Below are positions 5,080 through 59,556 of a stretch of DNA of 64,000 nt, piece after piece. The stretch spans positions 41,981,034 through 42,045,033 of the forward strand of contig NC_133169.1 of assembly GCF_040802235.1 (NCBI RefSeq), read 5' to 3'. A model generated the notes under the pieces. It was not told the origin of the DNA. It worked only from the letters and a program-made list of their open reading frames with translations, and made no database searches. Position 1 is the stretch's first letter, and each line of letters begins with the position of its first letter. Source of the stretch: Manis javanica (taxonomy: Eukaryota; Chordata; Mammalia; Pholidota; Manidae). A program made the translations under genes and the position numbers.

Positions 5080-5770
5080 CCTCAGGTGCCGGTCCCAGGC
5101 ACCCGCTCACTGGTCCTGCTGCCCTGTCTCCCTAGCACCAGGGTCCCTGTCCTTTCAAGGCTTCCAAAAAGCACCCACCCACCGGTCCCGCAGGGAAGGA
5201 ACGCTCAATATTCTTTGTCCTCTGGCACTGGTCCCACGCACCCGCTCACCAGTCCCGCCGCCCTGCCTCCCTAGCACCGGGGTCCCTGTCCCTTCAAGGC
5301 TTCCAAAAAGCACTCGGCAAAAAGAGAAAAAAAAAGGGGAAAAACGCGCGATTTCCTCTGTCCTCAAGTGCCGGTCTCAGGCACCCGCCCACCGGTCCCG
5401 CAGGGAAAAACGGGGGATATTCTTTGTCCTCAGGCGCCGGTCCCAGCCACCCGCTCACCAGTCCCGCCACCGTGCCTCCCTAGCACTGGGGTCCCCGTCC
5501 CTTCAAGGCTTCCAAAAAGCGCTCGCCCAAAAGAGAAAAAAAAAAAGGGGAAAAACGCGCGACCTCCTCCGTCCTCAGGCACCGGTCTCAGGCACCCGCC
5601 CCCAGGTCTCGCAGGGAGAAACGCGGGATATTCTTTGTCCTCCGGCGCCGTTCCCAGGCACCTCCTCACCGGTCCCGCCACCCTGCCTCCCCAGCAACGG
5701 GGGCCCGTCCCTCTAAGGCTTCCAAAAAGCGCTCGCCAAAAAAAAAACCGCTCCGGTTTCTCTCCACCCG
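5080..5770 (-). repeat. Tandem CpG-rich promoter monomers of about 210 bp (3-4 units)
   Basis: Units start near 5080, 5219, 5428 and 5639, spaced 139 (internally deleted), 209 and 211 bp. Each holds a conserved box around CTTCAAGGCTTCCAAAAAGC, a poly-A/G spacer, CGCGCGA and GATATTCTTTGTCC. A partial internal duplication of the GTCCTCAGGCGCCGGT-type box gives a nested sub-period. L1-B has only a single diverged copy of this block (about 18710-18900). Confidence 0.9.
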
Positions 5771-5976
5771 CCGGGAGCCGGGGGGAGGGGCGCTTGGGTC
5801 CCGCCGGGCTGGGGCTTGTATCTTACCCCCTTCACAAGGCGCTGGGTTCTTGCAGGTGTGGATGTGGTCTGGATGTTGTCCTGTGTCCTGTGGTCTCTAT
5901 TTTAGGAAGATTTTTCTTTATTATATTTTCATAGCTCTATGTGTTTTTGGGAGGAGATTTCCACTGCTCTACTCAC

Positions 5977-5989
5977 GCCGCCATCTTGG
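5977..5989 (-). promoter_or_regulatory. YY1-type motif at the L1-A 5' terminus
   Basis: The minus strand reads CCAAGATGGCGGC, the YY1 core (AAGATGGCGGC) found at the very start of human L1, where it fixes the transcription start. It is perfect here and altered in L1-B (19138-19148) and L1-D (57451-57463). Confidence 0.75.
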
Positions 5990-6639
5990 CTCCGCTAAAG
6001 AGTACGTGCATTTTTAAGGGCTTTTCTGTTTCTTCACTTCATTATCTCGGATTCCGTGACCCCGTGGCACCATGGATGTGCCCATGGCACCGGCAGCCCA
6101 GGTCACAGCTGCTCAATGAGACTCACTGAGTGAATCACGGGAAAGAAGCACTGAGTCACCAGAATCCGTTCCAAAGAATAAGCGAAGCTCTATGTAACAG
6201 GATGTCAGCCTGTACCTATTCAGGTAATCATCTCTGGATGCCACACCAATTTTTTTTATAGAAGTAAATATCATGAATACAAAAATATCAGAAATTTTTT
6301 AAAAAACCTCTTATATGGGAAGACAGACCACAACAACTCTGTCTGCAGTAGGAAAATACAACCCAAATGTTCAGTAATGGGATTAATAACCATAGGTACA
6401 GGTCATATCATCAGTGAGCCTCAAGAGGAGAATATTGACTGAAGAAAGTAGGTCATATGGGATCTTCCTCATGATTCCTATCATAGGAATTTCAACCACA
6501 CATAGTATATTATTTAAGGCAAGTAGCAGTGTGGAGATAATCAATATCACCAGCATGGACCAAGAGGGTCATATGATCAGAGGGTGTCATACAACTTTTT
6601 TATACCACTGGTAAAAACAGTGTTTCTTAAAATTTTGCA

Positions 6640-12770: not shown

Positions 12771-12787
12771 ATGATGGGAAGAAATAC
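12771..12787. repeat. Left target-site duplication of L1-B
   Basis: ATGATGGGAAGAAATAC just before the poly-T. The right copy is ATGATCTTGAAATAC at 19151-19165, diverged by an indel and substitutions, in keeping with an older insertion. Confidence 0.65.
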
Positions 12788-13149
12788 TTTTTTTTGGTAT
12801 CATTAATCTACAATTACAGAAAGAACATTATGTTTACTATGTTCCCCCCTTCACCAAGTCCCCCAAAAATACCCCTTCACAGTCTCTGTGCATCTGTGTA
12901 GTAAGATGCTGTAAAATCACTACTTGTCTTCTCTGTATTGCACAGCACTCCCGTGCCCCCCAAGCACTATACATGCTAATCGTAATGCCCTCTTTCTTTT
13001 CCCCACCCTTATCCCTCCCTTCCCACCCATCGTCTCCAGTCCCTTTCCCTTTGGTGACTATTAGTCCATTCTTGGGTTCTGTGATTCTGCTGCTGTTTTG
13101 TTCCTTCAGTTTTCCTTTGTTGTTATACTCCACAAATGATTGAAATCGT

Positions 13150-16100: not shown

Positions 16101-16942
16101 GCTTTGTGTTATTGTCATTTGTTTCCATATATTGTTGGATCTCCACTTTAATTGTTCATTTATTCATTGATTATTTAGGAGCATGTTATTAAGCCTCTAT
16201 GTGTTTGTGAGCCTTTTTGCTTTCTTTGTACAATTTATTTCTAGTTTTATACCTTTGTGGTCTGAAAAGTTAGCTGGTAGGATTTCAATCTTTTGTAATT
16301 TACTGAGGTTCTTTTTGTGGGCTAGTATGTGGTCTGTTCTGGAGAATGTTCCATGTGCACCTGAGAAGAATGTGTATCCTGTTGCTTTTGGATGTAGAGT
16401 TCTATAGATGTCTATTAGGTCCATCTGTTCTAGCGTGTTGTTCAGTGTCTCTGTGTCCTTACTTATTTTCTGTCTGGAGGATCTGTCCTTTGGAGTGAGA
16501 GGTGTGTTAAAGACTCCCAAAATCAATGCATTGCATTCTATTTCCTCCTTTAATTCTGTTAGTATTTGTTTCACATATATTGGTGCTCCTGCATTGGGTG
16601 CATATATGTTTATAATGGTTATCTCCTCTTGTTGGACTGAGACCTTTATCATTATGTAGTGTCCTTCTTTATCTCTTGTCACTTTCCTTATTTTGAAGTC
16701 TATTTTGTCTGATACTAGTACTGCAATGCCTGCTTTTTCTCTCTGTTGTTTGCATGAAATATATTTCTCCAAACCTTGAGTTTTAATCTGTGCATGTCTT
16801 TGGGTTTGAGGTGAGTCTCTTGTAAGCAACATATAGATGGGTCTTGCTGTTTTATCCATTCTATTACTCTGTGTCTTTTGATTGGTGCATTCAGTCCATT
16901 TACATTTAATTTGATTATTGAAAGATATGTACTTATTGCCAT
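13150..16942 (-). pseudogene. L1-B ORF2 pseudogene
   Basis: Fragments in several frames cover the whole ORF2. The endonuclease start (MAISTYLS...LNVNGLN) is at 16942, endonuclease pieces at 16197-16859, RT fingers at 15300-15749, the FADDM core at about 14850-15116, and the C-terminal region at 13583-13993. At least five frame breaks separate them. The normal stop is also changed (TGA to a sense codon near 13150). It cannot make an active protein. Confidence 0.9.
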
Positions 16943-17131
16943 TGCAGACTTTAGAATTGTGGTTACCAAAGGTTCAAGGTTAGCTTGTTTACTACCTTAC
17001 TGTCTGATTTCACTCGCTTATTGAGCTGTTATAAACAGTCTGATGATTATTTCTTTGCCTTCTTTTTCCTCCTCCTCCATTCTTCATATGTTGGGTGTTT
17101 TGTTCTGTGCTGTTTTTAGGAGTACTCCCAT

Positions 17132-18017
17132 CTAGAGCAGTCCCTCTAAGATACCCTGTAGAGGTGGTTTGTGGGAGGGAAATTCCTTCAACTTTTGCTT
17201 GTCTGGGAATTGTTTAATCCCTCCTTCATATTTAAATGATAATCATGCTGGATACAGTATCCTTAGTTCAAGGCCCTTCTGTTTCATTCCGTTAAATATA
17301 TCATGCCATTCTCTTCTGGCCTGTAAGGTTTCTGTTGAGATGTCTGATGATAGCCTGATGGGTTTCCCTTTGTAGGTGACTTTTTTATTATCTCTGGCTT
17401 CCTTTAATACTATGTTCCTGTACTTGATCTTTGCCATTTTAATTATTATGTGTCTTGGTGTTGTCCTCTTTGGATCCCATCTCTTGGGAGTTCTGTGTGC
17501 CTCTGTAGTCTGAGCAACTATTTCCTCCCCCAGTTTGGGGAAGTTCTCAGCAATTATTGCTTCAAAGACACTTTCTATCCCCTTTTCTCTCTCTTCTTGC
17601 TCTGGTACCCTTATAATGCAGATATTGTTCCTTTTGGATTGGTCACACAGTTCTCTTAATATTGTTTCATTCCTGGAGATCCTTTTATCTCTCTCTGCAT
17701 CAGCTTCTATGCGTTCCTGTTCTCTTTTTCTATTCCATCAATGGCCTCTTGCATCATATCCATTCTGCTTATAAATCCTTCCAGAGTTTGTTTCACATCT
17801 GTAATCTCCCTCCAGACATCTGTAATCTCCCTCCATACGTCTGTAATCTCCCTCTGGACTTCATCCCTTAGCTCTTGCATATTTCTCTGCAGCTCTGTCA
17901 GCATGTTTCTGATTTTTATTTTGAATTCTTTTTCAGGGACACTGGTTATGTCTGCCTCTGCAGATCCTTTCTCAGGTGTAACTATCTTGGACTGGATCAG
18001 ATTTTTTGCCTTTTCAT
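17132..18017 (-). pseudogene. L1-B ORF1 pseudogene
   Basis: The start MKRQK is at 18017 and is followed within a few codons by a stop. Readable blocks include a coiled coil with three tandem heptads (VWREITD type) at about 17790-17880 and the C-terminal MAKIKYRN/QARREWHDI region at 17243-17437. The hendecad units of L1-A are missing; the heptad triplication is specific to this copy. Confidence 0.88.
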
Positions 18018-19150
18018 GGTGATAGCAGTGGCTGTAGGCAGGTTGCGGGTGTGTCAGCTGGGAGAAGAAAGTCCTTTCCTGCTTTCTATATGCCTTGCCC
18101 TCTCCACTGCCTATGACGACTACTGGCACTCCTGGAGCAGCCACCGGGTTAATCTCCTAAGCTGCTGTGGGTGGGGTGTCTATCAGAGGAGCTCAGAGCC
18201 CTGCAGGGAGTTGCAGACATGCCAGGTGCACTCCTCCGTTCTAGTGGTGACCCTGCTGGGCAGCTGTGTGACAGCAGCAGGCTTTGGGTCTGGCCCGGGA
18301 GGCTGTGCGTTGGGCTGGGATTCCGGTTGGCCACTTGGAGCACACCTGCTCCCTCTGTCTCCACTGCCTGTGTGTGCAGGGCTCTTCCGCGCAGGCTTCT
18401 ACCAGGCTCTGGCTTCAATGCTGCTGGTGCATGTGAGCCGTGCCCAGGCTGTTCTTTCATGCCACTGTGGGCTAGCACAAGCCTCTCCTGTGGTGCACAG
18501 ATCTGCTCTTGGTTCCTTCCAGCACTTCCGCCCCCGGCACATACTCCCACTCTCCTGCTACTGGGTCCATGTGTCGGAGTCCGTGCTAGTTGGAGCAACT
18601 ACTGGCAGGCTGCCCAGTGCTGTGAGGGGCTTCAGAGCTGCACTGCCTCTGTTTAGGTTGCCTACGTTTCCCTGGTATTCCCAGCTTCTGGAACAACTTC
18701 ATCCAGCTATGGGGTCCCTGTCTCTTAAGACTTTCAGAAAGCACTCACTTTTCTTTTGTCTCAGGGGCACTGGTTGTGGGGACCTGCCCACAGGTTTTGC
18801 TTTTCTATTTCTCTAATATCCAGCACCCCATGCACCTTGTGTCCACGTTCCAGGTGCAGATTTCTAGAGCTGGTTGTTTAGCAGTCCTGGGCTTTCACTC
18901 CCTCCCTGTTCCGACTCCTTTCTTCCCACTGGGTTTTTGGGGTGGAGGAGCATTTGGGTCCCGCCTGGCTGTGGCTTGTATCTTACCCCATTCATGTGAT
19001 GCTGAGTTCTCACAGATGTAGATGTATGCTGACTGTTGTACTGCATCCACTGGTGTCTCTTTTAGGAATAGTTGTATTTATTGTATTTTCATAAGTATAT
19101 ATGTTTTGGGGAGGCGATTTTCTCTGAACTACTCATGCCACCATCTTCCC
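18018..19150 (-). promoter_or_regulatory. L1-B 5'UTR, decayed
   Basis: The L1 5'UTR lies between ORF1 and the 5' terminus. It holds one diverged copy of the promoter unit seen repeated in L1-A (CTTTCAGAAAGCACTC at about 18735). The terminal YY1-type motif is mutated. CpGs are largely lost, as expected after long methylation. Confidence 0.8.
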
Positions 19151-33763: not shown

Positions 33764-33765
33764 AA

Positions 33766-36432: not shown

Positions 36433-36448
36433 AAAGAATCCTGCCTTT
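36433..36448. repeat. Left target-site duplication of L1-C
   Basis: AAAGAATCCTGCCTTT, repeated perfectly at 42737-42752 after the poly(A). A 16-bp perfect duplication is typical of a recent L1 insertion, and it encloses the ERV-derived tail. Confidence 0.93.
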
Positions 36449-36539
36449 CGGGATTAAACAATTCCCAGAAAAGCAAAAGCTGAGGGAATTTGCTTCCCAC
36501 AAACCACCTCTACAGGGCATCCTACAGGGACTGCTCTAG
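36449..36539 (+). pseudogene. L1-C ORF1, 3' remnant
   Basis: Encodes only the last residues of ORF1p (GIKQFP...ASHKPPLQ to the stop TAG at 36537), starting at the truncation point of the insertion. The matching end of ORF1 in L1-A is near 3660-3750. Confidence 0.9.
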
Positions 36540-36732
36540 ATGGGAGCACCCCTAAAAAGAGCACAGAACAAAACACAACATACGAAGAATGGAGGAGGAG
36601 GAATAAGAAGGGAGAGAAGAAAAGAATCTCCAGACAGTGTATATAACAGCTCAATAAGCGAGCTAAGTTAGGCAGTAAGATACTAAAGAAGCTAACCTTG
36701 AACCTTTGGTAACCACGAATCTAAAGCCTGCA

Positions 36733-39700
36733 ATGGCAATAAGTACATATCTCTCAATAGTCACCCTAAATGTAAATGGACTTAATGCACCAATCAAAAG
36801 ACATAGAGTAGTAGAATGGATAAAAAAACAAGACCCATCTATATGCTGCTTACAAGAAACTCACCTTAAACCCAAAGATAAGCATAGACTAAAAGTCAAG
36901 GGATGGAAAAACATATTTCAGGCAAACAACATAGAGAAGAAAGCAGGGGTTGCAGTACTAATATCAGACAAAATAGACTTCAAAACAAACAAAGTAACAA
37001 GAGATAAAGAAGGACACTACATAATGATAAAGGGCTCAGTCCAACAAGAGGATATGACCATTCTAAATATATATGCACCCAATAAAGAAGCACCAGCATA
37101 TGTGAAGCAAATACTAACAGAACTAAAGAGGGAAATAGACTGCAATGCATTCATTGTAGGAGACTTCAACACACCACTCACCCCAAAGGATAGATCCACT
37201 GGGCAGAAAATAAGTAAAGACACACAGGCACTGAACAACACCCTAGAACAGATGGACCTAATAGACATCTATAGAACTCTACATCCAAAAGCAACAGGAT
37301 ATACATTCTTCTCAAGTGCACATGGAACATTCTCCAGAATAGACCACATACTAGCTCACAAAAAGAGCCTCAGTAAATTCCAAAATATTGAAATTCTACC
37401 AACCAATTTTAAAGACCACAAATGTATGGAAGTAGAAATAAATTCTACAAAGAAAACAAAAAGGCTCACAAACACATGGAGGCTTAACAACATGCTACAA
37501 AATAATCAATGGATCAATGAACAAATCAAAATAGAGATCAAGGAATATATAGAAACAAATGACAACAACAACACTAAGCCCCAACTTCTGTGGGATGCAG
37601 CAAAAGCAGTCTTAAGAGGAAAGTATATAGCAATCCAGGCACACTTGAAGAAGGAAGAACAATCCCAAATGAATAGTCTAAATTCACAATTATTAAAACT
37701 GGAAAAAGAAGAACAAATGAGACCTAAAGTCAGCAGAAGGAGGGACATAATAAAGATCAGAGAAGAAATAAACAAAATTGAGAAGAATAAAACAATAACA
37801 AAAATCAACGAAACCAAGAGCTGGTTCTTCGAGAAAATAAACAAAATAGATAAGCCTCTATCCCAACTAGTTAAGAGAAAAAGAGAGTCAACACAAATCA
37901 ACATAATCAGAAATGAGAATGGAAAAATCATGACAGACTCCACAGAAATACAAAGAATGATTAAAGACTACTATGAAAACCTATATGCCAACAAGCTGGA
38001 AAACCTAGAAGAAATGGACAACTTCCTAGAAAAATACAACCTCCCAAGACTGACCAAGGAAGAAACACAAAAGTTAAACAAATCAATTACGAGCAAAGAA
38101 ATTGAAACAGTAATCAAAAAACTACCCAAGAACAAAACCCCGGGGCCGGACGGATTTACCTCGGAATTTTATCAGACACACAGAGAAGACATAATACCCA
38201 TTCTCTTTAAAGTGTTGCACAAAATAGAAGAAGAGGGAATACTCCCAAACTCATTCTATGAGGCCAACATCACCCTAATACCAAAACCAGGCAAAGACCC
38301 CACCAAAAAAGAAAATTACAGACCAATATCCCTGATGAATGTAGATGCAAAAACACTCAATAAAATATTAGCAAACAGAATTCAACAGTATATCAAAAGG
38401 ATCATACACCATGACCAAGTGGGGTTCATCCCAGTGATGCAAGGATGGTACAACATTCGAAAATCCATCAACATCATCCACCACATCAACAAAAAGAAAG
38501 ACGAAAACCACATGATCATCTCCATAGATGCTGAAAAAGCATTTGACAAAATTCAACATCCATTCATGATAAAAACTCTCAGCAAAATGGGAATAGAGGG
38601 CAAGTACCTCAACATAATAAAGGCCATATATGATAAACCCACAGGCAGCATTATACTGAACAGCAAGAAGCTGAAAGCATTTTCTCTGAGATCGGGAACC
38701 AGACAGGGATGCCCACTCTCCCCACTGTTATTTAACATAGTACTGGAGGTCCTAGCCACGGCAATCAGACAAAACAAAGAAATACAAGGAATCCAGATTG
38801 GTAAAGAAGAAGTTAAACTGTCACTATTTGCAGATGATATGATACTGTACATAAAAAACCCTAAAGACTCCACTCCAAAACTACTAGAACTGATATCAGA
38901 ATACAGCAAAGTTGCAGGATACAAAATTAACACACAGAAATCTGTAGCTTTCCTATACACTAACAACGAATCAATAGAAAGAGAAATCAGGAAAACAATT
39001 CCATTCACCATTGCATCAAAAAGAATAAAATACCTGGGAATAAACCTAACCAAAGAAGTGAAAGACTTATACTCTGAAAACTACAAGTCACTCTTAAGAG
39101 AAATTAAAGGGGACACTAATAAATGGAAACTCATCCCATGCTCATGGCTAGGAAGAATTAATATCGTCAAAATGGCCATCCTGCCCAAAGCAATATACAG
39201 ATTTGATGCAATCCCTCTCAAATTACCAGCAACATTCTTCAATGAATTGGAACAAATAATTCAAAAATTCATATGGAAACACCAAAGATCCCGAATAGCC
39301 AAAGCAATCCTGAAAAAGAAGAATAAATTAGGGGGGATCTCACTCCCCAACTTCAAGCTCTACTACAAAGCCATAGTAATCAAGACAATTTGGTACTGGC
39401 ACAAGAACAGAGCCACAGACCAGTGGAACAGATTAGAGACCCCAGAAATTAACCCAAACATATATGGTCAATTAATATTTGATAAAGGAGCCATGGACAT
39501 ACAATGGCAAAATGACAGTCTCTTCAACAGATGGTGCTGGCAAAACTGGACAGCTACATGTAGGAGAATGAAACTGGACCATTGTCTAACCCCATATACA
39601 AAGGTAAACTCAAAATGGATCAAAGACCTGAATGTAAGTCATGAAACCATTAAACTCTTGGAAAAAAACATAGGCAAAAACCTCTTAGACATAAACATGA

Positions 39701-40532
39701 GTGACCTCTTCTTGAACATATCTCCCTGGGCAAGGAAAACAACAGCAAAAATGAGCAAGTGGGACTACATTAAGCTGAAAAGCTTCTGTACAGCGAAAGA
39801 CACCATCAATAGAACAAAAAGGAACCCTACAGTATGGGAGAATATATTTGAAAATGACAGATCCGATAAAGGCTTGATGTCCAGAATATATAAAGAGCTC
39901 ACACGCCTCAACAAACAAAAAACAAATAACCCAATTAAAAAATGGGCAGAGGAACTGAACAGACAGTTCTCCAAAAAAGAAATACAGATGGCCAAGAGAC
40001 ACATGAAAAGATGCTCCACATCGCTAATTATCAGAAAATGCAAATTAAAACTACAATGAGGTATCACCTCACACCAGTAAGGATAGCTGCCATCCAAAAG
40101 ACAAACAACAACAAATGTTGGCGAGGCTGTGGAGAAAGGGGAACCCTCCTACACTGCTGGTGGGAATGTAAATTAGTTCAACCATTGTGGAAAGCAGTAT
40201 GGAGGTTCATCAAAATGCTCAAAACAGACCTACCATTTGACCCAGGAATTCCACTCCTAGGAATTTACCCTAAGAACGCAGCAATCAAGTTTGAGAAAGA
40301 CAGATGCACCCCTATGTTTATCGCAGCACTATTTACAATAGCCAAGAATTGGAAGCAACGTAAATGTCCATCGGTAGATGAATGGATAAAGAAGATGTGG
40401 TACATATACACAATGGAATACTACTCAGCCATAAGAAGTGGAAAAACCCAACCATTTGAAGCAACATGGATGGAGCTGGAGAGTATTATGCTCAGTGAAA
40501 TAAGCCAGTGGAGAAAGAGAAATACCAAATGA
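36733..40532 (+). pseudogene. L1-C ORF2, nearly intact with one 1-bp deletion
   Basis: Open from ATG 36733 (MAISTYLS) for 1108 codons to a premature stop at 40057-40059. A one-base deletion at about 40033-40036 (compared with the other L1s here) shifts the frame; the normal C-terminus, including the CWRGCG...HCWWEC motif and [17 protein letters not shown], continues in the other frame to 40532. The endonuclease and RT cores are readable, with LNVNGLN, CLQETH, DFNTP and FADDM. The SDH motif of the endonuclease is KDH here. The loss of the C-terminal Cys-rich domain would disable normal function. Confidence 0.93.
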
Positions 40533-40919
40533 TTTCACTCATCTGAGGAGTATAGGAACAATGGAAAAACTGAAGGAACAAAACAGCAGCGCAATTACAG
40601 AACCCAAAAATGGACTAACAGGTACCAAAGGGAAAGGAACTGGGGAGAATGGGTGGGCAGGGAGGGATGGGGGGGGAAGAAGAAGGGGGGTATTAAGATT
40701 AGCATGCATTGGGGGGAGGGAGATAGGGGAGGGTGGGCTGCACAACACAGAGAGGACAAGTAGTTACTCTACAACATTTTGCTAAGCTGATGGACAATAA
40801 CCGTAATGTGGTTGTTAGGGGGGACCTGGTATAGGGGAGAGCATAGTAAACATAGTATTCTTCATGTAAGTATAGATTAAAAATTTAAGAAAAAAAAAAA
40901 AAGAAAGAAAAAAAGAAAA
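40533..40919 (+). other. L1-C 3'UTR and internal A-rich run
   Basis: G-rich L1 3'UTR (GGTACCAAAGGGAAAGGAAC, poly-G tracts at about 40660-40750) ending in an A-rich run at 40887-40919. The G-tract-rich 3'UTR is a general L1 trait. The A run marks the original L1 end before the tail was added. Confidence 0.85.
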
Positions 40920-41374
40920 GGGGGATTACTCCTTGACAGGATAAAACTATTGGTAAATCAAATATCAATGCATGCTTTAAATATCCTTAATGTTGATCAC
41001 TTAAAGGGTGTCACATGATCAGCTATGGAGGTACTCTTTTCTGATAATATTCCTTTCTCTTAATTAGAAAAAAAAAAAAAAGGCAGTTACTGTGTGCTGA
41101 CCTCCAATGAGTTCTGCACAGTGGTATAGAAGGCATGTCAAAGTGTGGGCAAAGGGTCTGTTTGTTTCTACGCTGAAGATCAAGGCCTAGCTTGGATACC
41201 CAGAAAATGAACTAAGATATGATATGAGGAGGAGCTTCCGGCATCAGCACTCTCTGGAGGACTTGTGCCGGGGGATGATCATCAAAAAGCCTCCACAGGT
41301 ATCCGGACGATGCTGAGGTTGTGGCTGCATCCAGCCCACCATCTCCTGGACTTGCCATAGGAATGAGGAGGGAG

Positions 41375-41741
41375 ATGTCTAGGCTGGCATGTGCATACAG
41401 TGAGACAACGAATTTGACCGAATCTGTCCTGTTGGAACTCAACCAGGAGTTGGGAGGGGTGCAAGTTGTAGCACTCCAAAATCTCATAACTATAGACTAT
41501 CTACGATTAAAAGAACATATGGGATGTGAACAGATCCCAGAAATGGGCTGCTTTAATTTGTCTGATGGTTCAAGTACAGTTGGACAATATCCATCATATC
41601 ATAGATAAATTTTCACAAATGCCTAGGGTGCCTAAATGGTTTTCTTGGCTTCACTGGAGATGGATGGTAATTATAGATTTGCTTTGTTTATGTCACCGTA
41701 TTCCTATTATGTTAATATGTGTGTGCAAATTAGTAGTTTAA
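41375..41741 (+). pseudogene. Env TM remnant within L1-C tail
   Basis: Reads LELNQELGGVQVVALQN, then DYLRLKEHMGC, then a CX6GC box (the first cysteine of the usual CX6CC pair is Gly), then CFNLSD. A frameshift at about 41565-41575 moves the frame into the DNIHHIIDKFSQMP and WFSWLHWRW parts, followed by a hydrophobic segment. It belongs to a different Env type from P1/P2. It is broken, and no SU is present. Confidence 0.8.
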
Positions 41742-42395
41742 AACCTATACATACTTAAGGTACTCTACAAGAAGATATGTCAAAGAAATAATCAATCCTC
41801 CCAAGTTTCCTTCATATGCTACATCTATAGCTTTTCTTCTTCCTTCCTAATTACAACCCTTAAATAGAATTCGTGCCTCATATCAAATTTACCGAGTATC
41901 ATAATTCCTCCAGGTGGTAAAGATACCTTGAGACAAGTGCTGGGCATAGAAGCCACAGGGCATAAATCTGCAAAGAAGTAAAAAGCTAACCTTTGCAAAC
42001 AATATGGCTTCTCTCTCACTTACCAACTTTACATTTCCCTGTATGGCCCCGGAAGATGACTGGTTAGCCAGAGACGGGTAAGATTCCTCAAGGGAGGAAC
42101 AACCTAAGACAGGCACAGTCGCAGGGGGGCCATCAGGTGAGAATTTGGGGATCAACAGAGGTGAGGCTCAGAACCTCACCCCACCTGCTTTGAGAGAAAT
42201 CTTCTGCATCCGTGGATGTCTTGCTGCCCTTGTCTAGCCTGGATTAATACTTAGTCCATAGGCACATACCTGATCATCTGATCATCTACATTTGCCCTCT
42301 TACAGCACTAAACTATGTTTTCTACCTTTATCTTGCATCTACCTACCACTTCAGCATTTTATTAAAAATAAAAATAATAATAATAAAGGGAGAAA

Positions 42396-42718
42396 TGTGG
42401 GATCAACATATAAATCAAGTACAAAAATCAAACGAATATTCATATTTGACCTGATTGTTTATAGGTCATAATGCATGATCAAAACCGAAAGTTTCTGTGA
42501 TGAATGCCCTTGTACTGTTCACCATGTAAGAATTTATTCACTATGTAAGAATTCATTCACCATGTAAGAACTTGTTCGTTATGCTTCAGAAGATTGGAGA
42601 CTGACGAGAATTAGGCTTGAGATGGATTAATGATTGTACATTGAGCGTTGACCCCCCTATACTGAATTTTATTGTTGTTAACAACCATTTGATCAATAAA
42701 TATGAGAGATGCCCTCTC
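42396..42718 (+). repeat. LTR part (U3-R) in L1-C tail, with polyadenylation signal
   Basis: Starts TGTGGGATCAACATATAAAT after the purine tract AAAGGGAGAAA. A 19-bp unit (CACCATGTAAGAATTTATT type) is repeated three times at about 42520-42576. The AATAAA at 42695-42700 precedes the poly(A) start. In a provirus this is the 3' LTR; here it ends where a retroviral transcript would be cleaved. Confidence 0.85.
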
Positions 42719-42736
42719 AAATAAAAAAAAAAAAAA

Positions 42737-42752
42737 AAAGAATCCTGCCTTT
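42737..42752. repeat. Right target-site duplication of L1-C
   Basis: Perfect copy of 36433-36448 directly after the poly(A). Confidence 0.93.
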
Positions 42753-49109: not shown

Positions 49110-49605
49110 TATCATGAAGTGGTTGTTTTCCTCCTAGTTTACTAAGGTATGATGGACAAAATAAAAATTTTATATATTTGAAGTGTACAACTAATATTTT
49201 CATATATGTACACATTAAAATTATCACCAAAATGAAGGTAGTTAACATATCTATCATCTCACACAATTTTTTTTCTTTTGTCTGCTGAGAACACCAGCAG
49301 CTGGTGAAATCTGTCCTGGCAAATTTCAAGTGTACAAGACAATAAGTAACTATGTGCACATTGCTGTGCATTAGATCTACAGAGTTTATTCATTTTAATA
49401 ATAGTAATGCAGATTTTATGCACTCACCTCTTCTCCATCTCTTCAGCCACTGACAACCACCATTCTGTTCTCTCCTCTATGATTCTGATATTTTTTTATG
49501 ACACATAAGTATCATCAAGCTGTGTTTGTCTTTCCGAGCCTGGATTATTTCACTTAGAATGATGCCCTCCAGGTGTATCCGTGTCGTTGCAAATGGAAGT
49601 ATTAC
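49110..49605 (-). mobile_element. Old L1 3' region, part a (host of L1-D)
   Basis: Ancient L1 3'UTR/ORF2 end in minus orientation (ACTAAGGTATGATGGACAAA, GAGAACACCAGCAGCTGG, TTATTTCACTTAGAATGATG). It is split by L1-D and resumes at 57471. It parallels 8378-8800. Confidence 0.8.
49591..49605. repeat. Left target-site duplication of L1-D
   Basis: AAATGGAAGTATTAC. The right copy AATGGAAGTATCAC at 57471-57484 has one mismatch. The pair encloses both L1 and ERV tail. Confidence 0.85.
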
Positions 49606-49688
49606 TTTTTTTTCTTTTTATTTATTTATTTATTCATTCATTCATTCATTCATTTATTTATTTATTATTTATTTATTTATTTATTTTT
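49606..49688. repeat. (TTTA)n/(TTCA)n microsatellite from the L1-D poly(A)
   Basis: A poly-T start followed by TTTA and TTCA units. This is a typical decay and expansion of an L1 poly(A) tail. Confidence 0.9.
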
Positions 49689-51473
49689 GAGAGGGCATCT
49701 CTCATATTTATTGATCAAATGTTTGTTAACAACAATAAAATTCTGTATAGGGGAGTCAATGCTCAATGCACAATCATTAATTCACCCCAAGTCTAATTTT
49801 CATCAGTCTCCAATCTTCTGAAGCATAACCAACAAGTTCTTACATAGTGAACAAATTCTTACATAGTGAATAAGTTCTTACATGATGAACAGTACGAGGG
49901 CAGTCATCAGAGAAACTTTCGGTTTTGATCACACATTATGAACTATAAACAATCAGGTCAAATATGAACATTTGTTTGATTTTTATACTTGATTTATATG
50001 TGGATACCACATTTCTCCCTTTATTATTATTATTTTTATTTTTAATAAAATGCTGAAGTGGTAGGTAGATGCAAGATAAAGGTAGAAAACATAGTTTAGT
50101 TTTGTAAGAGAGCAAATGCAGATGATCAGGTGTGTGCCTGTAGACTATGTGTTAATCCAAGCTAGACAAGGGCAATAAAACATCCACGGATGCAGAAGAT
50201 TTCTCTCAAAACAGGGGGGGTGAGGTTCTGAGCCTCACCTCTGTTGATCCCCAAATTCTCACCTGATGGCCCCCCTGCGACTGTGCCTGTCTTAGGTTGT
50301 TCCTCCCTTGAGGAATCTTACCCGTTTCTGGCTAACCAGTCATCTTCTGGGGCCATACAGGGAAATGTAAAGTTGGTAAGTGAGAGAGAAGCCATATTGT
50401 TTGAAAAGGTTAGCTTTTTACTTCTTTATGCCCTGTGGCTTCTATGCCCAGCATTTGTCTTGAGGTATCTTTACCACTTGGAGGAATTATGATACTCGGT
50501 AAATTCGATATGAGGCACGAATTCTATTTAAGGGTTGTAATTAGGAAGGAAGAAGAAAAGCTATAGAGGTAGAAGATGGAAGAAAACATGGGAAGATTGA
50601 TTATTTCTTTGACATATCTTCTTGTAGAGTAACTTAAGCATGTATAGGTTTTAAACTACTAATTAAATTGTGCACACACATTAACATAATAGGAATACAG
50701 TTACATAAAGAAAGCAGATCTATAATTACCAGCCATCTCCAGTGAAACCAAGAAAACCAGTTAGGCATCCTAGGCATTTGTGAAAACTTATCTATGATAT
50801 AATGGATATTGTCCAACTGTACTTGAACAGTCTGAGAGAAATCAGACAAATTAAAACAACCCATTCCTTGGAACTGTTCACATCCCATATGTTCTTTTAA
50901 CAGTAGGTAGTCTATAGTTGCAAGATTTTGGAGCACTGCAACTTGCACTTCTGCTAATTCTTGGTTTAGTTCTGACAGTATAGATCCAGTCAAATTTGTT
51001 GTTTTACTCTATGCACAGGCCAGCTTAGATATCTCCTTCTTCATTCCCATGGAAAGTCCAGGAACCGGTGGAATTAATGAGCTACAGCTGTAGCAGCGCT
51101 TGGATCATTGTTGAGGTTTTTTGATGATCATCTTCTGGTATGAGTCTTTCAGAAAGTTTTGATGTTGGAAGTTCTTCTTCATATCGTATCTTAGTTCATT
51201 TTCTGGGTAGCCAAATTAGGCTTTGATCCTCTGTATAAACACAAACAAACCCTTTGCTCACACTTTGATATGCCCTTTATACCATTGTGTAGAACTCATT
51301 GGAGGTCACCATACAGGAACTGCTTTTTTTTTTAAGAGAAAGGAATATTATCAGAAAATGTACCTCCATAGCTGATCATCTGACACTCTTTAAGTGATCA
51401 AAATTAAGGATATTTAAAGCATGCATTAATCATTGATTTGCAGTTAGTTTTATCCTATCAGGGAGTAATCCCC
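49689..51473 (-). mobile_element. ERV-derived 3' tail of L1-D
   Basis: Same content as 40920-42718 in reverse: LTR U3-R at 49689-50011 (AATAAA in sense near 49708-49713), polypurine tract (sense GGGAGAAA) just inside 50012, non-coding part, Env TM remnant, then the junction to the L1 3'UTR. The three-unit repeat with TTCTTACATAGTGAA is at about 49827-49885. Confidence 0.93.
50634..50993 (-). pseudogene. Env TM remnant in the L1-D tail, 119-codon open frame
   Basis: An open frame from the ELNQELAEVQVAVLQN heptad region through DYLLLKEHMGC, a CX6GC box, CFNLSD, a DNIHYIIDKF helix, a Trp-rich WFSWFHWRW membrane-proximal segment and a hydrophobic anchor. The frame stays open here although it is broken in the younger L1-C. 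There is no SU and no signal peptide; the residue before the second Cys is Gly in both copies, so the canonical CX6CC is absent. It is a remnant, not a functional envelope. Confidence 0.8.
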
Positions 51474-51497
51474 CTTTTTTTTCTTTCTTTGTTTTTG

Positions 51498-51854
51498 GTT
51501 ATCATTAACCTACACTTACATGAATAATATTATGTTTACTAGGCTCTCCCCTATACCAGGTCCCCTCTATAAACTCTTTTACAGTCACTGTCCATCAGCA
51601 TAGCAAAATGTTGCAGAATCACTACTTGTCTTCTCTGTGTTGTACAGCCCTCCCCTTTCTCCCACCCCACCATTATGCATGCTAATCTTAATACCCCCCT
51701 TCTTCTTCCCACCCCTTATCCCTCCCTACCACACCCATCCTCCACAGTCCCTTTCTCTTTGGTACCTGTTAGTCCAATCTTGGGTTCTGTGATTCCACTG
51801 CTGTTTTGTTCCTTCAGTTTTTCCTTTGTTCTTATAATCTACAGATGAGTGAAA
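51498..51854 (-). other. L1-D 3'UTR
   Basis: C/T-rich on the plus strand (G/A-rich in sense), as in the 3'UTRs of L1-B, L1-C and L1-E. The sense end GTTAATGATAACCAAAAAC precedes the A-rich junction. Confidence 0.8.
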
Positions 51855-54800
51855 TCATTTGGTATTTCCCTTTCTCCACTTGGCTTATTTCACTGAGCAT
51901 AATGCCCTCCAGGTCCATCCATGTTGCTGCAAATGGTAGGATTTGCCCTCTTCTTATGGCTAAGTAGTATTCCATTGTGTATATGTACCACTCTTCCTTT
52001 TCCATTCATCTATCGATGTACATTTAGGTTGCTTCCAATTCTTGGCTATTGTAAATAGTGCTGCGATAAACATAGGAGTGCATCTGTCTTTTACAAACTT
52101 GAGTGCTGCATTCTTAGGGTAAATTCCTAGGAGTGAAATTCCTGGGTCAAATGGTAAGTCTGTTTTGAGTATTTTGATGAACCTCCATACTGCTTTCCAC
52201 AATGGTTGAACTAATTTGCATTCCTACCAGCAGTAGACGTGGGTTCCCCTTTCTCCACAGACTCGCCAACATTTGTTGTTGTTTGTCTTTTGGATGACAG
52301 CCATACTTACTGATGTTAGGTGATACCTCATTGTAGTTTTAATTTGCATTTCTCTGATAATTACCGATATGGAGCATCTTTTCATGTGTCTGTTGGCCAT
52401 CTATATTTCTTTTTTGGAGATTTGTCTGTTCAGTTCCTCTGCCCATTTTTTATTTGGGTTATTTGTTTTTTTTGTGTTGAGGCATGTGAGCTTTTTATAT
52501 ATTTTGGACATCAAGCCTTTATCAGATTTGTCATTTAGAAATATATTCTCCCATACTCTAGGATTCCTTTTTGTTCTATTGATGGTGTCTTTTGCTGTAC
52601 AGAAGCTTTTCAGCTTAATATAGTCCCACTTGTTCATTTTTGCTGTTGTTTTCTTTGCCCGAGGAGATATGTTCAAGAAGATGTCACTCATGTTTATGTC
52701 TAATAGGTTTTTGCCTATGTTTTTTTCCAAGAGTTTAATGGTTTCATGACTTACATTCAGGTCTTTGATCCATTTTGAGTTTACTTTTGTATATGGGGTT
52801 AGACAATGGTCCAGTTTCATTCTGCTACATGTAGCTGTCCAGTTTTGCCAGCACCATCTGTTGAAGAGACTGTCATTTCCCCATTGTATGTTCATGGCAC
52901 CTTTATCAAATATTAATTAACCATATATGTCTGGGTTAATGTCTGGAGTCTCTATCTGTTCCACTGGTCTGTGGCTCTGTTCTTGTGCCAGTACCAAATT
53001 TTCTTGATTACTATGTCTTTATAGTAGAGCTTAAAGTTGGGTAGTGAGATTCCCCCTACTTTATTCTTCTTTCTCAGGATTGCTTTGGCTACTCAGGGTC
53101 TTTGGTGTTTATATATGAAATTTTGAATTATTTGTTCCAGTTCATTGAAGAATATTGCTGGTAGTTTCATAGGGATTTCATCAAATCTGTATATTGCTTT
53201 GGGCAGGAAGGACATTTTGATGACAGTAATTCTTCCTAGCCACGAGCATGGGATGAGTTTCCATTTGTCAGTGTCCCCTTTAATTTCTCTTAAGAGTGAC
53301 TTGTAGTTTTCAGAGTATATGTCTTTCACTTCTTTGGTTAGGTTTATTCCTAGGTATTTTATTCTTTTTGATGCAATTGTGATTGGAGTTGTTTTCCTGG
53401 TTTCTCTTTCTATTGGTTCATTGTTAGTATATAGGAAAGCCACAGATATCTGTGTGTTAATTTTGTATCCTGCAACTTTGCTGTATTCCGATATCAGTTC
53501 TAGCAGTTTTGGGGTGTAGTCTTTAGGGTTTTTTATGTACAATATCATGTCATCTGTAAATAGTGACAGTTTAACTTCTTCTTTACCAATCTAGATTCCT
53601 TGTATTTCTTTGTGTTGTCTGATTGCTGTGGCTAAGACCTCCAGTATTATGTGAAATAACAGTGGGGAGAGTGGGCATCCCTGTCTTGTTCCCGATCTCA
53701 GACGAAAAGCTTTCAGCTTCTCGCTGTTCAGTATAATGTTGGCTGTGGGTTTATGATATATGGCCTTTATTATGTCGAGGTACATGCCCTCTTTTCGATT
53801 TTGCTGAGAGTTTTTACCATGAATGGATGTTGAATTTTGTCAAATGCTTTTTCAGCATCTATGGAAATGATCATATGGTTTTTGTCTTTCTTTTTGTTGA
53901 TGTAGTGGATGATGTTGATGGATTTTCGAATGTTGTAACATCCTTGCATCCTTGGGATGAATCCCGCTTGGTCATGGTATATGATCCTTTTGATGTATTT
54001 TTGAATTCAATTTGCTAATATTTTGTTGAGTATTTTGCATCTACATTCATCAGGGATATTGGGCTGTAGTTTTCTTTTTTGGTGCGGTCTTTTCCTGGTT
54101 TTGGTATTAGAGTGATGTTGGCTTCATAGAATGAGCTTGGGAGTATTCCCTCCAGTTGTATTTTTTGGAAAACTTTAAGGAGCATGAGTATTATGTCTTC
54201 CCTTTATGTCTGATAAAATTCCGAGTCGAATCCATCTGGCCGGCAGGTTTTGTTCTTTGGTAGTTTTTTGATTACCGCTTCAATTTCGTTGCTGGTAATT
54301 GGTCTGTTTAGATTTTCTGTTTCTTTCTGTGTCAGTCTTTGAAGGTTGTATTTTTCTAGGAAATTGTTCATTTCTCCTAGGTTTCCCAGTTTGTTAGCAT
54401 ATAGGTTTTCATAGTACTCTCTAATAATTCTTTGTATTTCTGTGGGGACCATCGTGATTTTTCCTTTCTCGTTTCTGACTCTGTTGATTTGTGTTGACTC
54501 CCTTTTCCTCTTAATAAGTCTGGCTAGAGACTTTTCTATTTTGTTTATTTTCTCAAAGAACCAGCTCTTGGTTTCATTGATTTTTGATATTGTTTTATTC
54601 TTCTCAATTTTATTTATTTCTTCTCTGATCTTTATTATGTCCCTCCTTCTGCTGACCTTAGGCCTCATTTGTTCCTCTTTTTCCAATTTCAATAATTGTG
54701 ACATTAGACCATTCATTTGGGATTATTCTTCCTTCTTTTAATATGCCTGGATTGCTATATACTTTCCTCTTAAGACTGCTTTTGCTATATCCCACAGCAG

Positions 54801-55652
54801 TTGAGGCTTTGTGTTGTTGTCTTCGTTTGTTTGCATATATTGCTGGTTCTCCATTTTGATTTGGTCATTGATCCCTTGATTATTTAGGAGCGTGTTGTTA
54901 AGCCTCCATGTGTTTGTGAGCCTTTTTGCTTTCTTTGTACAGTTTATTTCTACTTTTATGCCTTTGTGGTCTGAAAAGTTGCTTGGTAGCATTTCAATCT
55001 TTTGGAATTTACTGAGGCTCTTTTTGTGGCCTATTATGTGCTCTATTCTGGAGAATGTTCCATGTGCACTTGAGAAGAATGTGTGTCCTGTTGCTTTTGG
55101 ATGTAGAGTTCTGTAGATGTCTGTTAGGTCCATCTGTTCTAGTGTGTTGTTCAGTCCCTCTGTATCCTTACTTATTTTCTGTCTGGTGAATCTGTATTTG
55201 GAGTGAGTGGTGTGTTGAAGTCTCGCAGAATGAATGCGTTGCATTCTGTTTTCCTCCTTTAGCTCTGTTAGTATTTGTTTCAGATATGTTGGTGCTCCTG
55301 TATTGGGTGCATATATACTTATAATGGTTATATCCTCTTGTTGGACTGAGCCCTTTATCATTATGTAATGTCCTTCTTTATCTTTTGTTGCTGTCTTTAT
55401 TTTGAAATCTGTTTTTTCTGATACTAGAATTGCAACACCTGCTTTTTTCTATCTATTGTTTGCATGAAATATCTTTTTCCATCTCTTGACTTTAAGTCTG
55501 TGCATGTCTTTGGGTTTGAGGTGAGTCTCTTGTAAGCAGCATATGGAAGGATATTCCTTTATTATCCATTCTATTATGCTGTGTCTTTTGATTGCTGCAT
55601 TCAGTCCATTTACATTTAGGGTGATTATTGAAAGGTATGTACTTATTGCCAT
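51855..55652 (-). pseudogene. L1-D ORF2 pseudogene
   Basis: All domains are recognisable in separate frames: endonuclease start (MAISTYLS at 55652), later endonuclease (54738-55361), RT fingers (54204-54716), RT core and thumb (53093-53785), C-terminal region (52401-52895) and the Cys-rich end (51960-52202). At least six frame breaks or stops lie between them. The RT FADDM box region at about 53548 also has a changed codon (the ADD part is disrupted). Confidence 0.9.
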
Positions 55653-55848
55653 TGCAGGCTTTAGAATTGTGGTTACCAAAGGTTCAGGGTTAGCTTCTTT
55701 ACTATCTTACTGTCTAACTTAACTTGCTTGTTGTGCTATTATAAACACGGTCTGATGATTCTTTTTTTCTTGCCCTTCTTATTCCTCCTCCTCCCTTCTT
55801 TATAAGTTGGGTATTTTGTTCTGTGCTCTTTTTAGGAGTGCTCCCATC

Positions 55849-56669
55849 TAGAGCAGTCCCTGTAAGATGCCCTGTAGAGGTGGTTTGTGGGAGGCAAATT
55901 CCCTCAACTTTTGCTTGTCTGGGAATTATTTAATCCCACCTTCATATTTAAATGATAATCATCCTGGATACAGTAGTCTTGGTTCAAGACCCTTCTGTTT
56001 CATTGCATTAAGTATATCATGCCATTCTCTTCTGGCATGTAGGGTTTCTGTTGAGAAGTCTGATGATAGCCTCATGGGGTTTTTTTGTAGTTAACCTTTT
56101 TTTTCTCTCTGGCTGCCTTTAATTCTTTGTCCTTGTCTTTGATCTTTGCCATTTTAATTATTATGTGTCTTGGTGTTGCCCTCCTTGGATCCCTTCTTAT
56201 GGGAGTTCTGTGTACCTCTGTGGTCTGAGAGCAATTTTTCTTCAAAAACACTTTCTATCCCTTTTTCTCTCTCTTCTTCTGCTACCCCTATAATGTAGAT
56301 ATTGTTCCACTTCGATTGGTCTCTCAGCTCTCTTTGAACTCTTTCATTCCTGGACATCCTTTTATCTCTCTCTGCATCAGCTTCTCTGCGTTCCTGTTCT
56401 CTGTTTTCTAGTCCATTAATGGTCTCTTGCATCTCGTCCATTCTGTTCTGAAGTCCTTCCAGAGCTTGTTTTATTTCTGTATTCTTGTTCCTCAGTTCTT
56501 GCATATTTCTCTGCAAATCCATCAGGTTGGTTATGACTTTTGTTTTGAATTCTTTTTCAGGAAGACTGGTTAAATCTATTTCCCCAGGTTCCTTTGCAGG
56601 GGAAGATGTAGCAGATGCCAAAGCTGTCTGTATTAGTCTTGTCTGGATCATATTTTTTTGACTTTTCAT
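55849..56669 (-). pseudogene. L1-D ORF1 pseudogene
   Basis: The start MKSQKNMIQ at 56669 leads a 171-codon frame with a short coiled coil (LQRNMQELR, then directly EIKQALEGLQNRM), the ERVQREL region and NIYIIG of the RRM. It then shifts frame. Neither the 11-residue units of L1-A nor the heptad triplication of L1-B is present, so this copy shows the shortest coiled coil. The C-terminal domain is readable in pieces down to 55849. Confidence 0.88.
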
Positions 56670-57470
56670 GTTGATAGGTGCTACTGACTGTCAGCTGGGG
56701 GGGGGCATACTTTCCACGTGCTACTGGCCTTTCTTTACTGGGACATCTGCGACCCCTAGTGGCTTGTGTTGGGTAATTGTGTGTAGACTGGCTCTTTGTG
56801 TCTTGCCCGGCCAGTATGGAGGAAGCTCCCTTTCTGAGGGCGTGGCCAGCCTTACGCTGATTTTCTGCTTTCGCAGCGTCCATAGGGGTAATGAACGGGG
56901 GGGCTGTTTGGCTGTTTACCTCCATGAGGGGTCTCAGAGCTGTTTCCCAGGTAGTTAGTGCATCTGGTTTTCCCTGTAATTTCCAGCTGCTGATCTGTGA
57001 GCTGTGTTGTTTCCATCCAGCTGTTGCATCCCTGTTCCTTTAAGAATTTCAAAAAGCACTCGCTTTTCTTTGTCACGGGGGCATCAGCTTCGTGACCTGC
57101 TCACCGGCCCTGCTGTCCTGTTTCCCTAGTATCCAGGACCCCACGCATGCACTGTGTCTGTGTTCTGGTGCAGATGTCTGGGGCTGGGTGTTTAGCAGTC
57201 CTTGACTCCCTCTCCCTCCTTGCTCCGACACCTCTCCTCCCACAGGGAGCTGGGGTGAGGGGTGCTCAGGTCCCACCGAGCTGGGGCTTGTATCTTTATC
57301 CTTTCACCATGTGCTGGGCTCTCGCACGTGTGAATGTAGTCTGGCTGTTGTTCTGTGTCTTCTGGTCTCTCTTTTAGGTTTAGTTGTATTTGTTGTATTT
57401 TCAAAAATATATATGTTTTTGGGAGGAGATTCCCACTGTCCTACTCATGCCGCCATGTTGGCTCTGCCCC
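56670..57470 (-). promoter_or_regulatory. L1-D 5'UTR, decayed
   Basis: About 0.8 kb from ORF1 to the 5' terminus, with a single promoter block (TTCAAAAAGCACTCGC at about 57047-57063) and a mutated YY1-type start motif. No tandem monomers. Confidence 0.8.
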
Positions 57471-57690
57471 AATGGAAGTATCACCATTTTGAAGGCTAAA
57501 TATACTATTCATTCATTTGTCAATGGATATTTAGGGTCATCCCTACATCTTAGTTATTATGAAAAATGCTGCCATAATCATAGGAGTGTGGATAGTGATT
57601 TCATATCCTTTGGCTATACACTGATGAGTGGGATTGCTGAATAACTTTTTGAATAACATCTGTACAGAATTCCATTAATTGTAGCAATTT
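57471..57690 (-). mobile_element. Old L1 3' region, part b
   Basis: Continues 49110-49605 across the L1-D insertion (TCAATGGATATTTAGGGTCA, GGAGTGTGGATAGTGATTTC, GATGAGTGGGATTGCTGAAT). Confidence 0.78.
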
Positions 57691-58581: not shown

Positions 58582-59556
58582 GGAATTAAAAAATAGGCAG
58601 AGGAGATGAGCAGACAGTTCTCCAAAGAAGAAATTCAGATGGCCAACAGACATATGAAAAAATACTCCACATTGCTAGTCTTCAGAGAAATGCAAATTAA
58701 AACCACAATGAGATATCAGCTCACACCAGTAAGGATGGCTACCACCCAAAAGACAAACAACAACAAATGTTTGCAAGGTTGTGGAGAAAGGGGAACCCTC
58801 CTACACTGCTGATGGGAACGTAAATTAGTTCAACCATTGTGGAAATCAGTATGGAGGTTCCTCAAAATGGTCAAAATAGACATACCATTTGACCCAGGAA
58901 TTCCACTCTTAGGAGTTTACCCTAAGAATGCAGGAGCCCAGTTTCAAAGACATATGCACCCCTATGTTTATCACAGCACTATTTCCAATAGCCAAGAAAT
59001 GGAACCAACCTAAGTGTCCATCAGTAGATGAATGGATAAAGAAGATGTGGTACATATACACAATGGAATATTATTCAGCCATAAGAAGAAAACAAATCCT
59101 ACAATTTGCAACAACATGGATGGAGCTAGAGAGTATTATACTCAGTGAAATAAGCCAAGTGGAGAAAGACAAATACCAAATAATTTCACTCATATGTGGA
59201 GTATAAGAACAAAGAAAAACTGAAGGAACAAAACAGCAGCAGAATCACAGAACCCAAGAATGGACTAACAGGTACCAAAGGGAAAGGGACTGGGGAGAAT
59301 GGGAGGGTAGGAAGGGATAAGGGTGGGTAAGAAAGGGGGTATTATGATTAGCATTTATAATGTGGGAGGGGAGGAATGGGGAGGGCTGTGCAACACAGAG
59401 AAGACAAGTAGTGATTCTACAACATCTTACTAAGCTGATGGACAGTGACTGTAATGGGATTTGTGGGGGGGGACTTGGTGAAGGGGGGACCCTAGTAAAC
59501 ATAATGTTCTTCATATAATTTTTGATTAATGATAACAAAATTTTAAAAATTCCTAA
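58582..59556 (+). mobile_element. L1-E: 5'-truncated L1 3' fragment without ERV tail
   Basis: Starts in the ORF2 C-terminal region (ATTAAAAAATAGGCAGAGG) and runs through the 3'UTR to a degenerate A-rich end. ORF2 pieces at 58606-58812 (with [14 protein letters not shown]) and 58928-59206 are separated by frame breaks. Short A-rich duplications (AAAATAAAAGG at about 58570 and 59564) flank it. Like L1-B it ends at the normal L1 3'UTR. Confidence 0.88.

Follow-up and report, generated by a model that had tools for sequence, protein, structure and literature searches.

A pangolin L1 lineage that very probably carries part of an old endogenous retrovirus as its 3' end

Chimeric L1 elements at the locus

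The window analyzed here, a 64,000-nucleotide stretch of the Manis javanica genome (NCBI RefSeq assembly GCF_040802235.1, contig NC_133169.1, positions 41,981,034 to 42,045,033, forward strand), contains the L1 retrotransposons L1-A to L1-E. Three of these (L1-A, L1-C, and L1-D) are tailed copies, in which the L1 is joined at its 3' end to a segment related to endogenous retroviruses (ERVs); a sequence-only reading of the window had recognized two. The whole chimera L1-D (L1, tail, and A-rich end) occupies 49606..57470 on the minus strand, as delimited by BLAST, by its boundaries, and by a 14-bp target-site duplication (TSD) with one mismatch. The two repeats, AATGGAAGTAT(T/C)AC, were read directly at 49592..49605 on the 3' side and 57471..57484 on the 5' side. 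Alignment to L1-A, L1-B, L1-C, and L1-E defined the L1 part (51475..57470, minus strand), comprising a 5' untranslated region (UTR), broken open reading frames (ORF) 1 and 2, a 3' UTR, and the native A-run. L1-D had been described as full length, and is taken as such because its 5' start is common to two other copies, L009 and L026. The tail (49689..51474, minus strand, 1786 bp) begins behind the A-rich run with GGGGGATTACTCC (tail start 51474) and ends at 49689, where a degraded A/AAAT run follows; its start and end are equal in other copies, and the ERV copies L001, L029, and L081 are its kin.

L1-C (36449..42739, plus strand) is enclosed by a TSD reading GAATCCTGCCTTT (36436-36448 and 42740-42752), and its tail (40920..42718, plus strand) has the same start and end as that of L1-D. 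The shared tail, join point, and end asserted by the sequence-only reading were thus found, both copies being joined at the native L1 end and terminating at the same last base. L1-C is not the full-length chimera that had been supposed; it is 5'-truncated and begins at 36449, shortly ahead of ORF2. L1-C and L1-D are 87.4% identical over the tail and 90.4% over the L1 body. Alignment also placed L1-A (1..5995, minus strand, 5' end approximate), the tail of which lies outside the window, in the adjoining 3.4 kb (L031), and is 97.0% identical to that of L1-C. Two older copies, L1-B (12787..19147, minus strand) and the 5'-truncated L1-E (58584..59540, plus strand), were likewise placed by alignment and lack the tail, as had been stated. 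Both stop at the native L1 end (...GATTAATGATA plus A-run), the point where the tail begins in tailed copies.

Retroviral identity of the tail

The tail runs in the order env transmembrane subunit (TM), post-env segment, purine tract, and long terminal repeat (LTR). An open piece of 124 codons in L1-D (50634..51008, minus strand) matched TM chains of avian sarcoma/leukosis virus (ASLV; 5h9c_A/4jpr_A, E 5e-12, residues 3-65), and a Pfam search of the TM piece gave no match. The last ~323 bp of the tail (49689..50011, minus strand, in L1-D) are LTR sequence (U3-R). Two solo LTRs, L036 and L037 (412-413 bp, TG...CA ends, exact 6-bp TSDs), continue 114 and 97 bp beyond the tail end, which is therefore taken to be the LTR poly(A) site. 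These were found among 46 places where the LTR start stands behind non-A bases. Six such places were read, namely, the LTRs L036, L037, and L040 and the tails or fragments L035, L038, and L039; a 6-bp TSD with a CA end was present in two of the three LTRs examined, L040 not being clear. A pattern made of the 16-base tail end followed by non-A bases matched three places (two tails and one chance match), with no continuing LTR among them. With an ASLV-like env TM, a post-env segment, and an LTR, the tail is best read as a piece of an alpha/beta-like endogenous retrovirus, in agreement with the earlier description of an L1-ERV chimera.

ERV copies without an L1 are collinear with the tail, L001 (with L030 counted as its continuation) and L029 to about tail position 811-835 and L081 in three blocks between position 1 and about 1260 and once more in the LTR. 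L029, ERV kin with a similar env, has its own, different LTR behind a purine tract (3414 onward). Several features of these relatives weigh against the transduction reading given below. L001 and L029 match the tail no further than the position given, the U3 of L081 is unlike that of the tail, and identity of the ERV copies to the tail ranges over its parts from about 67 to 90%. In addition, the ERV kin have 810-925 bp between tail positions about 367 and 370-377 that are absent from every tail row shown. Recombination may have occurred between the env and LTR of these ERV families. Among Chinese-pangolin ERVs are an alpha-like group and a single gamma ERV in which a LINE-1 separates env from the 3' LTR (PMC12584738, in part; here and below, "in part" denotes a portion of the source). 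The same portion cites Dfam ManJav LTR families, and parts of the element may therefore be catalogued under other names.

The open env piece measures 175 codons in L009 and L026, 164 in L022 and L024, 124 in L1-D and L019, and 109 in seven copies, and L020 has none of 90 or more at that place. Retention of the env frame by selection was considered and rejected, the open piece varying from 175 codons to 109 or less and being shortest in young copies.

Copy number and constancy of the junction

The junction 13-mer GGGGGATTACTCC occurred exactly 5469 + 5608 times genome-wide (11,077), as compared to 13 + 14 (27) for its reversed control, and chance is excluded as the source of the shared junction. 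Three sets of junction places, among 100 listed of the 11,077 and all on one chromosome, were read individually. The first eight (0.35-1.53 Mb) comprised five joined to L1 and three of retroviral character, two of the latter representing one duplicated stretch. Over 20 consecutive places (5.44-7.78 Mb), 19 were joined to L1 at the same point, with L016 as the exception; over the 40 consecutive places from 7.78 to 12.47 Mb, 39 were L1-joined, and the exception, L075, was retroviral. Combined, 58 of 60 consecutive places were joined to L1 at one point, with one ERV and one odd case. Two insertions alone could not prove a lineage, as had been claimed for L1-C and L1-D; the lineage finds its support in these 58 same-point junctions and in the distance correlation described below. 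The suggestion that the tail marks one sublineage is probably an understatement, and the proposed check for many junction points returned one in 58 of the 60 places.

Certain aspects of the sample weigh against the lineage. The places lie on one chromosome arm, in which some stretches are duplicated. At L016 (around 6490, minus strand), the tail follows an older L1 with no A-run between them and at a different L1 position, and is itself interrupted at tail position 837 by another L1; this may be a truncation at the tail start inside an old L1 or another joint. Near-identical insertions in the sampled region (L003/L008, L004/L006, L009/L017, and L018/L021), which lie at about 0.3-8 Mb of contig 1, point to a segmental or assembly duplication at the beginning of this longest contig.

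A motif from the 3' end of young-type L1s occurred 2251 times. Among the matches listed (contig 1, below 15.56 Mb), each of 20 young-type ends had a listed junction 43-66 bp away. The motif was derived from tailed copies, and tail-less young L1s with other letters would escape it, which counts against a broader conclusion; the 20 of 20 therefore shows that this subfamily is tailed and not that tail-less young L1s are absent. From one stretch of one chromosome, we infer that the tailed lineage now dominates young L1s.

The tail ended at the same base, with an A-rich run after it, in all 21 rows that contained the end motif (L1-C, L1-D, and 19 from loci, among them duplicates; 10 further rows were cut short or interrupted), and AATAAA lay 30 nt or less upstream of this end in 19 of the 21. 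TSDs enclosing L1 and tail together were present in L1-C, L1-D, L018 (16 bp), L023 (17 bp), and L024 (16 bp). The last three were the only ones placed correctly by an automatic TSD search of 15 loci, the remaining results being chance, nested, or unclear. The native A-run at the junction tends toward a longer (AAAG)n in young copies. As observations on individual loci, the young part of L010 starts inside an older L1 where L011 has a 92-bp tandem duplication of the L1 3' UTR, and in L011, L012, and L014 young elements seem to have entered older tails at A-rich stretches, which makes the tail a target for insertion in its own right. Tail pieces directly behind the tails of these three loci were considered as tandem copies, but new insertions into older tails are the better reading.

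Concordance of L1 and tail histories

Kimura two-parameter distances from about 1.4 kb of the L1 3' part were compared with those from 1.5 kb of the tail in 18 distinct copies. Left out earlier were L001, L003, and L008 (ERV); L006, L017, L021, and L014_2210 (duplicates); L016, L010, and L028 (nested or interrupted); and L002 (short L1 part). A first run with 20 rows gave a Mantel r of -0.02 (3688 of 9999 permutations as high) because L013, which has an internal deletion, and L023, with 399 bp of L1 only, were misaligned; both were dropped. For the 18 copies, the Mantel r was 0.899 (reached by 0 of 9999 permutations) and the Spearman coefficient 0.91. With L1-B and L1-E as root, the L1 tree exhibited the same ladder as the unrooted tail tree, from L018, L009, L1-D, and L026 at the old end through L004 and L022 to the young copies, with L1-C near the young end. 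A phylogeny of both parts had been proposed as a check, and it bore out the lineage in distances and ladder, not in every branch. The two trees differ (Robinson-Foulds 14 of 30), and the approximately unbiased (AU) test rejects the tree of each data set on the other (p 0.007 and 1e-5), both of which weigh against strictly joint descent. The Shimodaira-Hasegawa test does not reject the swapped trees (p 0.45 and 0.33), and their log-likelihood differences are 20 and 52, whereas random labels gave about 495 and 1100. Room must be left for short branches or for a degree of exchange among copies.

Measured to the youngest cluster, tail distances were 0.151 for L018, 0.116 for L1-D, and 0.025 for L1-C, with 0.007-0.009 inside the cluster. 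At a mammalian substitution rate of 2.2e-9 per site and year, the splits fall at about 34 (L018), 26 (L1-D), 6 (L1-C), and 2 million years (youngest cluster), and the tailed lineage would be about 25-35 million years old. The greater age assigned to L1-D relative to L1-C is upheld by these distances and by its place at the old end of the ladder. The contrast drawn between a decayed L1-D and a fresh L1-C holds in part: the frames of L1-D are broken (longest 236 codons) and its A/AAAT run is degraded, and L1-C retains 1126 open ORF2 codons, versus 1289 in copies with the whole frame, and is not among the youngest copies. ORF1 (328-339 codons) and ORF2 (1289 codons) were both open in three of 12 long copies.

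A conserved post-env segment resembling an RNA-export element

Among 15 full tails, the slowest 120-bp stretch was D-tail 1074-1193, with 17 changes versus 47 expected; 2 of 10,000 column permutations were as low, a procedure that covers the choice of window but not uneven mutation rates. In 60-bp bins, an A-rich stretch before the LTR (1381-1440, p 0.020) was as slow as 1081-1200 (0.021-0.025), most others lying at 0.04-0.12. With 24 rows, variants found in at least two copies were depleted in the 120-bp stretch (7 in 120 columns versus 275 in 1666, p 0.001), and remained so when CpG-context sites were excluded (p 0.0008). Tails and ERV L081 agree at 87-90% across the post-env block (D-tail 1108-1260), as compared to 69-83% for the env parts, and the block contains GACGGGTAA, 19 bases, and AACCTAAGACAGG inside the slowest stretch.

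Both motifs recall the constitutive transport element (CTE) of simian retroviruses. In the half-mer primers for the simian retrovirus 1 (SRV-1) CTE, the first contains AACCTAAGACAGG and the complement of the second contains GACGGGTAA (PMC4330393, in part); the CTE of Mason-Pfizer monkey virus (MPMV) and SRV lies directly 3' of env (PMC3621094, in part), and a conserved AAGACA is present in the NXF1-recruiting element of murine leukemia virus (PMC7551171, in part). In the window, the export-element-like core was located at 42073..42113 (plus strand) in L1-C, by motif search and fold, as GACGGGTAA, 19 nt, and AACCTAAGACAGG, and at 50286..50326 (minus strand) in L1-D as AACGGGTAA ... AACCTAAGACAGG, by the motifs within those SRV-1 primers. 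Both loop motifs are exact in 18 of 24 tails, with one change in L1-D, L033, and L035, two in L009 and L019, and three in L002, and the 19-nt spacing is kept in all 24. ERV L081 has the first motif exact and the second with two changes. None of 1000 shuffles of the L1-C tail contained both motifs, changes allowed, and a scan of IMG/VR for both gave 0 matches.

These observations are suggestive of retention of the tail for RNA export through a putative NXF1/CTE-type element. That the L1 lineage captured a working retroviral export element together with a poly(A) signal, and that this cargo came under selection and helped replace tail-less pangolin L1s, is a tentative proposal that we consider possible and somewhat improbable. 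A tail that is an inert passenger, spread as its L1 lineage happened to win, has about even chances; this concerns function and is compatible with the other readings considered here. A passenger would account for an env piece that is not kept open across copies. Singletons, expected to be neutral, are also depleted in the conserved stretch with 15 rows (p 0.0013) and less so with 24 (p 0.06-0.08), and low mutability may therefore explain part of the conservation. The contrast of shared and singleton variants, in the manner of a McDonald-Kreitman test, was not significant (p 0.17 and 0.11 with 24 rows, 0.27 with 15), and folding z-scores were ordinary (-1.89 for 162 nt, -0.95, and -0.82). Against an export element speak, besides the folding z-scores, the single loop-motif pair recognized in the tail, an Rfam search of the L1-C tail that returned only a sub-threshold chance match, and the primer layout in the available portion of PMC4330393, by which the half-mer motif order is opposite to that of the tail. 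Human L1's own export element, moreover, proved dispensable in an assay of a synthetic L1 whose reporter carried an intron (PMC3045867, in part). What a mere passenger leaves unexplained is the 120-bp stretch itself, with its 17 changes against 47 expected (2 of 10,000 permutations), its depletion of lineage-shared variants (p 0.0008-0.001), and its possession of both printed loop motifs.

Origin of the fusion

We consider it very probable that the 3' end of the element, an L1, is a 3' transduction that was taken from an old endogenous retrovirus and became fixed. An L1 without AATAAA near its own end would first have inserted, in sense orientation, into env of an alpha/beta-like provirus, the proposed site being AAAAAGGGGGATTACTCC; its RNA would then have run past its own poly(A) and ended at the poly(A) signal of the 3' LTR. 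As the anatomy of the copies shows, L1, A-run, env piece, post-env segment, and LTR up to the poly(A) site were copied as one unit by L1 retrotransposition, with a TSD and a new poly(A) tail. Copy number and the largely concordant distances show that this transduction became the permanent 3' UTR of a lineage. The tail may have been kept for a better poly(A) signal in the LTR and a post-env segment acting as a CTE-type RNA-export element. The L1 parts of L1-B, L1-C, and L1-D lack AATAAA near the native end, and L1-C has ATTAAA.

The preferred site of the L1 endonuclease is of the type TTTT/AA. At L081, the letters at the junction point are TTATTAAAACAAAAAGGGGG / TTATTAAAACAAAAAGGGGGATTACTCC, which is TTTT/AA on the other strand and fits an L1 insertion in env followed by read-through to the LTR. 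The corresponding site in L001 and L003 is poorer for the endonuclease, and no source locus with an L1 inside such a provirus was seen among the ERV kin (L001, L003=L008, and L081, all without L1); both points weigh against the transduction. L009 and L026 share a second 3' extension behind the tail, with AATAAA near its end and a poly(A), of about 210 bp in L009 and shorter in L026 by internal deletion. This extension, which we take to resemble an old L1 3' end, reads as a serial 3' transduction in an older sublineage, and read-through therefore appears to have gone on.

The founder copy could instead have arisen by template switching, the L1 reverse transcriptase having moved between an L1 RNA and a retroviral RNA, in either direction, in the course of a single insertion. 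This is unlikely. It would suit a tail that is a single retroviral stretch with a real retroviral poly(A) end, and in L001 and L029 the missing 810-925 bp have edges consistent with a GT...AG intron, making a processed RNA possible as template. L081 has the GT donor and lacks the acceptor AG, however, and deletion at a 3-bp repeat accounts equally well for L001 and L029. The L1's own A-run stands between the two parts, as read-through past a poly(A) tail predicts, and the L081 site is of the L1 endonuclease type. Repeated independent captures, or gene conversion between tails, that mimic one lineage are highly improbable: the AU rejections, the different joint of L016, and the position of L011, closer to the youngest copies in its tail than in its L1 part, are outweighed by the single junction point at 58 of 60 places, the Mantel r of 0.899, the equal subfamily ladder in both trees, and the same internal segment missing in every tail row shown.

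Other features of the window

A GC-rich 211-bp tandem repeat of 2.7 copies lies at the L1-A 5' end (5171-5742) and has no match in L1-D; young tailed copies likewise seem to carry a different 5' UTR. Long direct repeats, 91-99% identical, occur at 22724-34109 (25908/30903, 22724/33810, and 29752/32615) and are perhaps LTRs of other ERVs near L1-C. In the Malayan pangolin assembly, LINEs make up 35.41% and LTR elements 11.14% (PMC11825179, in part).

Significance and comparison with known systems

The usual view of L1 3' transductions is that they are by-products of weak poly(A) signals. Here, one such event would have given an abundant young L1 lineage its standard 3' end and persisted over tens of millions of years. 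The lineage offers a natural experiment on whether L1 3' UTR function (RNA 3' end formation and export) limits L1 success, and on whether another class of retroelement can domesticate retroviral RNA-export elements. If the export-element reading is true, a LINE relies on retroviral parts to complete and export its RNA. In repeat annotation, such tails may be entered as LTR/ERV sequence. A search of titles and abstracts in the open literature gave none on this pangolin L1 tail, nor any on L1 families that had gained a retroviral LTR through transduction, subscription papers, Dfam, and Repbase lying outside this search.

The tail resembles L1 3' transductions of human and mouse, in which sequence downstream of an L1 is co-mobilized after read-through of a weak L1 poly(A) signal; it starts after the native end and A-run, has its own poly(A) with a signal, and is enclosed with the L1 by a TSD. 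To our knowledge, known L1 3' transductions mark small source-specific groups, whereas about eleven thousand exact junctions belong to the family that has the pangolin one as its 3' end.

The closest printed layout encountered is the SINE-R part of the hominid SVA elements, which consists of the env 3' end and 3' LTR of HERV-K10 (PMC12593883, in part). Like the pangolin tail, it comprises an ERV env 3' end and an LTR up to the poly(A) site, ends in an A-tail, and is moved by L1. As far as the available portion describes it, SVA is non-autonomous, has Alu-like and variable-number tandem repeat parts, and lacks L1 ORFs, and its source ERV is of another kind; the pangolin piece, in contrast, sits on an autonomous-type L1 with ORF1 and ORF2. 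In the turnover of mouse L1 UTRs (PMC3600994, in part), lineages likewise recruit new untranslated sequence and then amplify. There, most of the recruited sequences are 5' UTRs drawn from old L1 families or unknown sources, with L1-L1 exchange, as compared to a 3' end from a retrovirus in the pangolin.

The SRV-1/MPMV CTE (PMC4330393, PMC3621094, and PMC7551171, each in part) shares with the post-env segment its position downstream of env and both loop motifs around a hairpin. It differs in that the printed half-mer has AACCTAAGACAGG first and GACGGGTAA last, whereas the tail has GACGGGTAA first, a single pair, and no Rfam match. Finally, an NXF1-binding export element has been described in the human L1 3' UTR (Lindtner 2002, as cited in PMC3045867, in part), so that a possible NXF1 element in an L1 3' UTR would be common to both; the human element is native L1 sequence, whereas the pangolin candidate would have been captured from a retrovirus.

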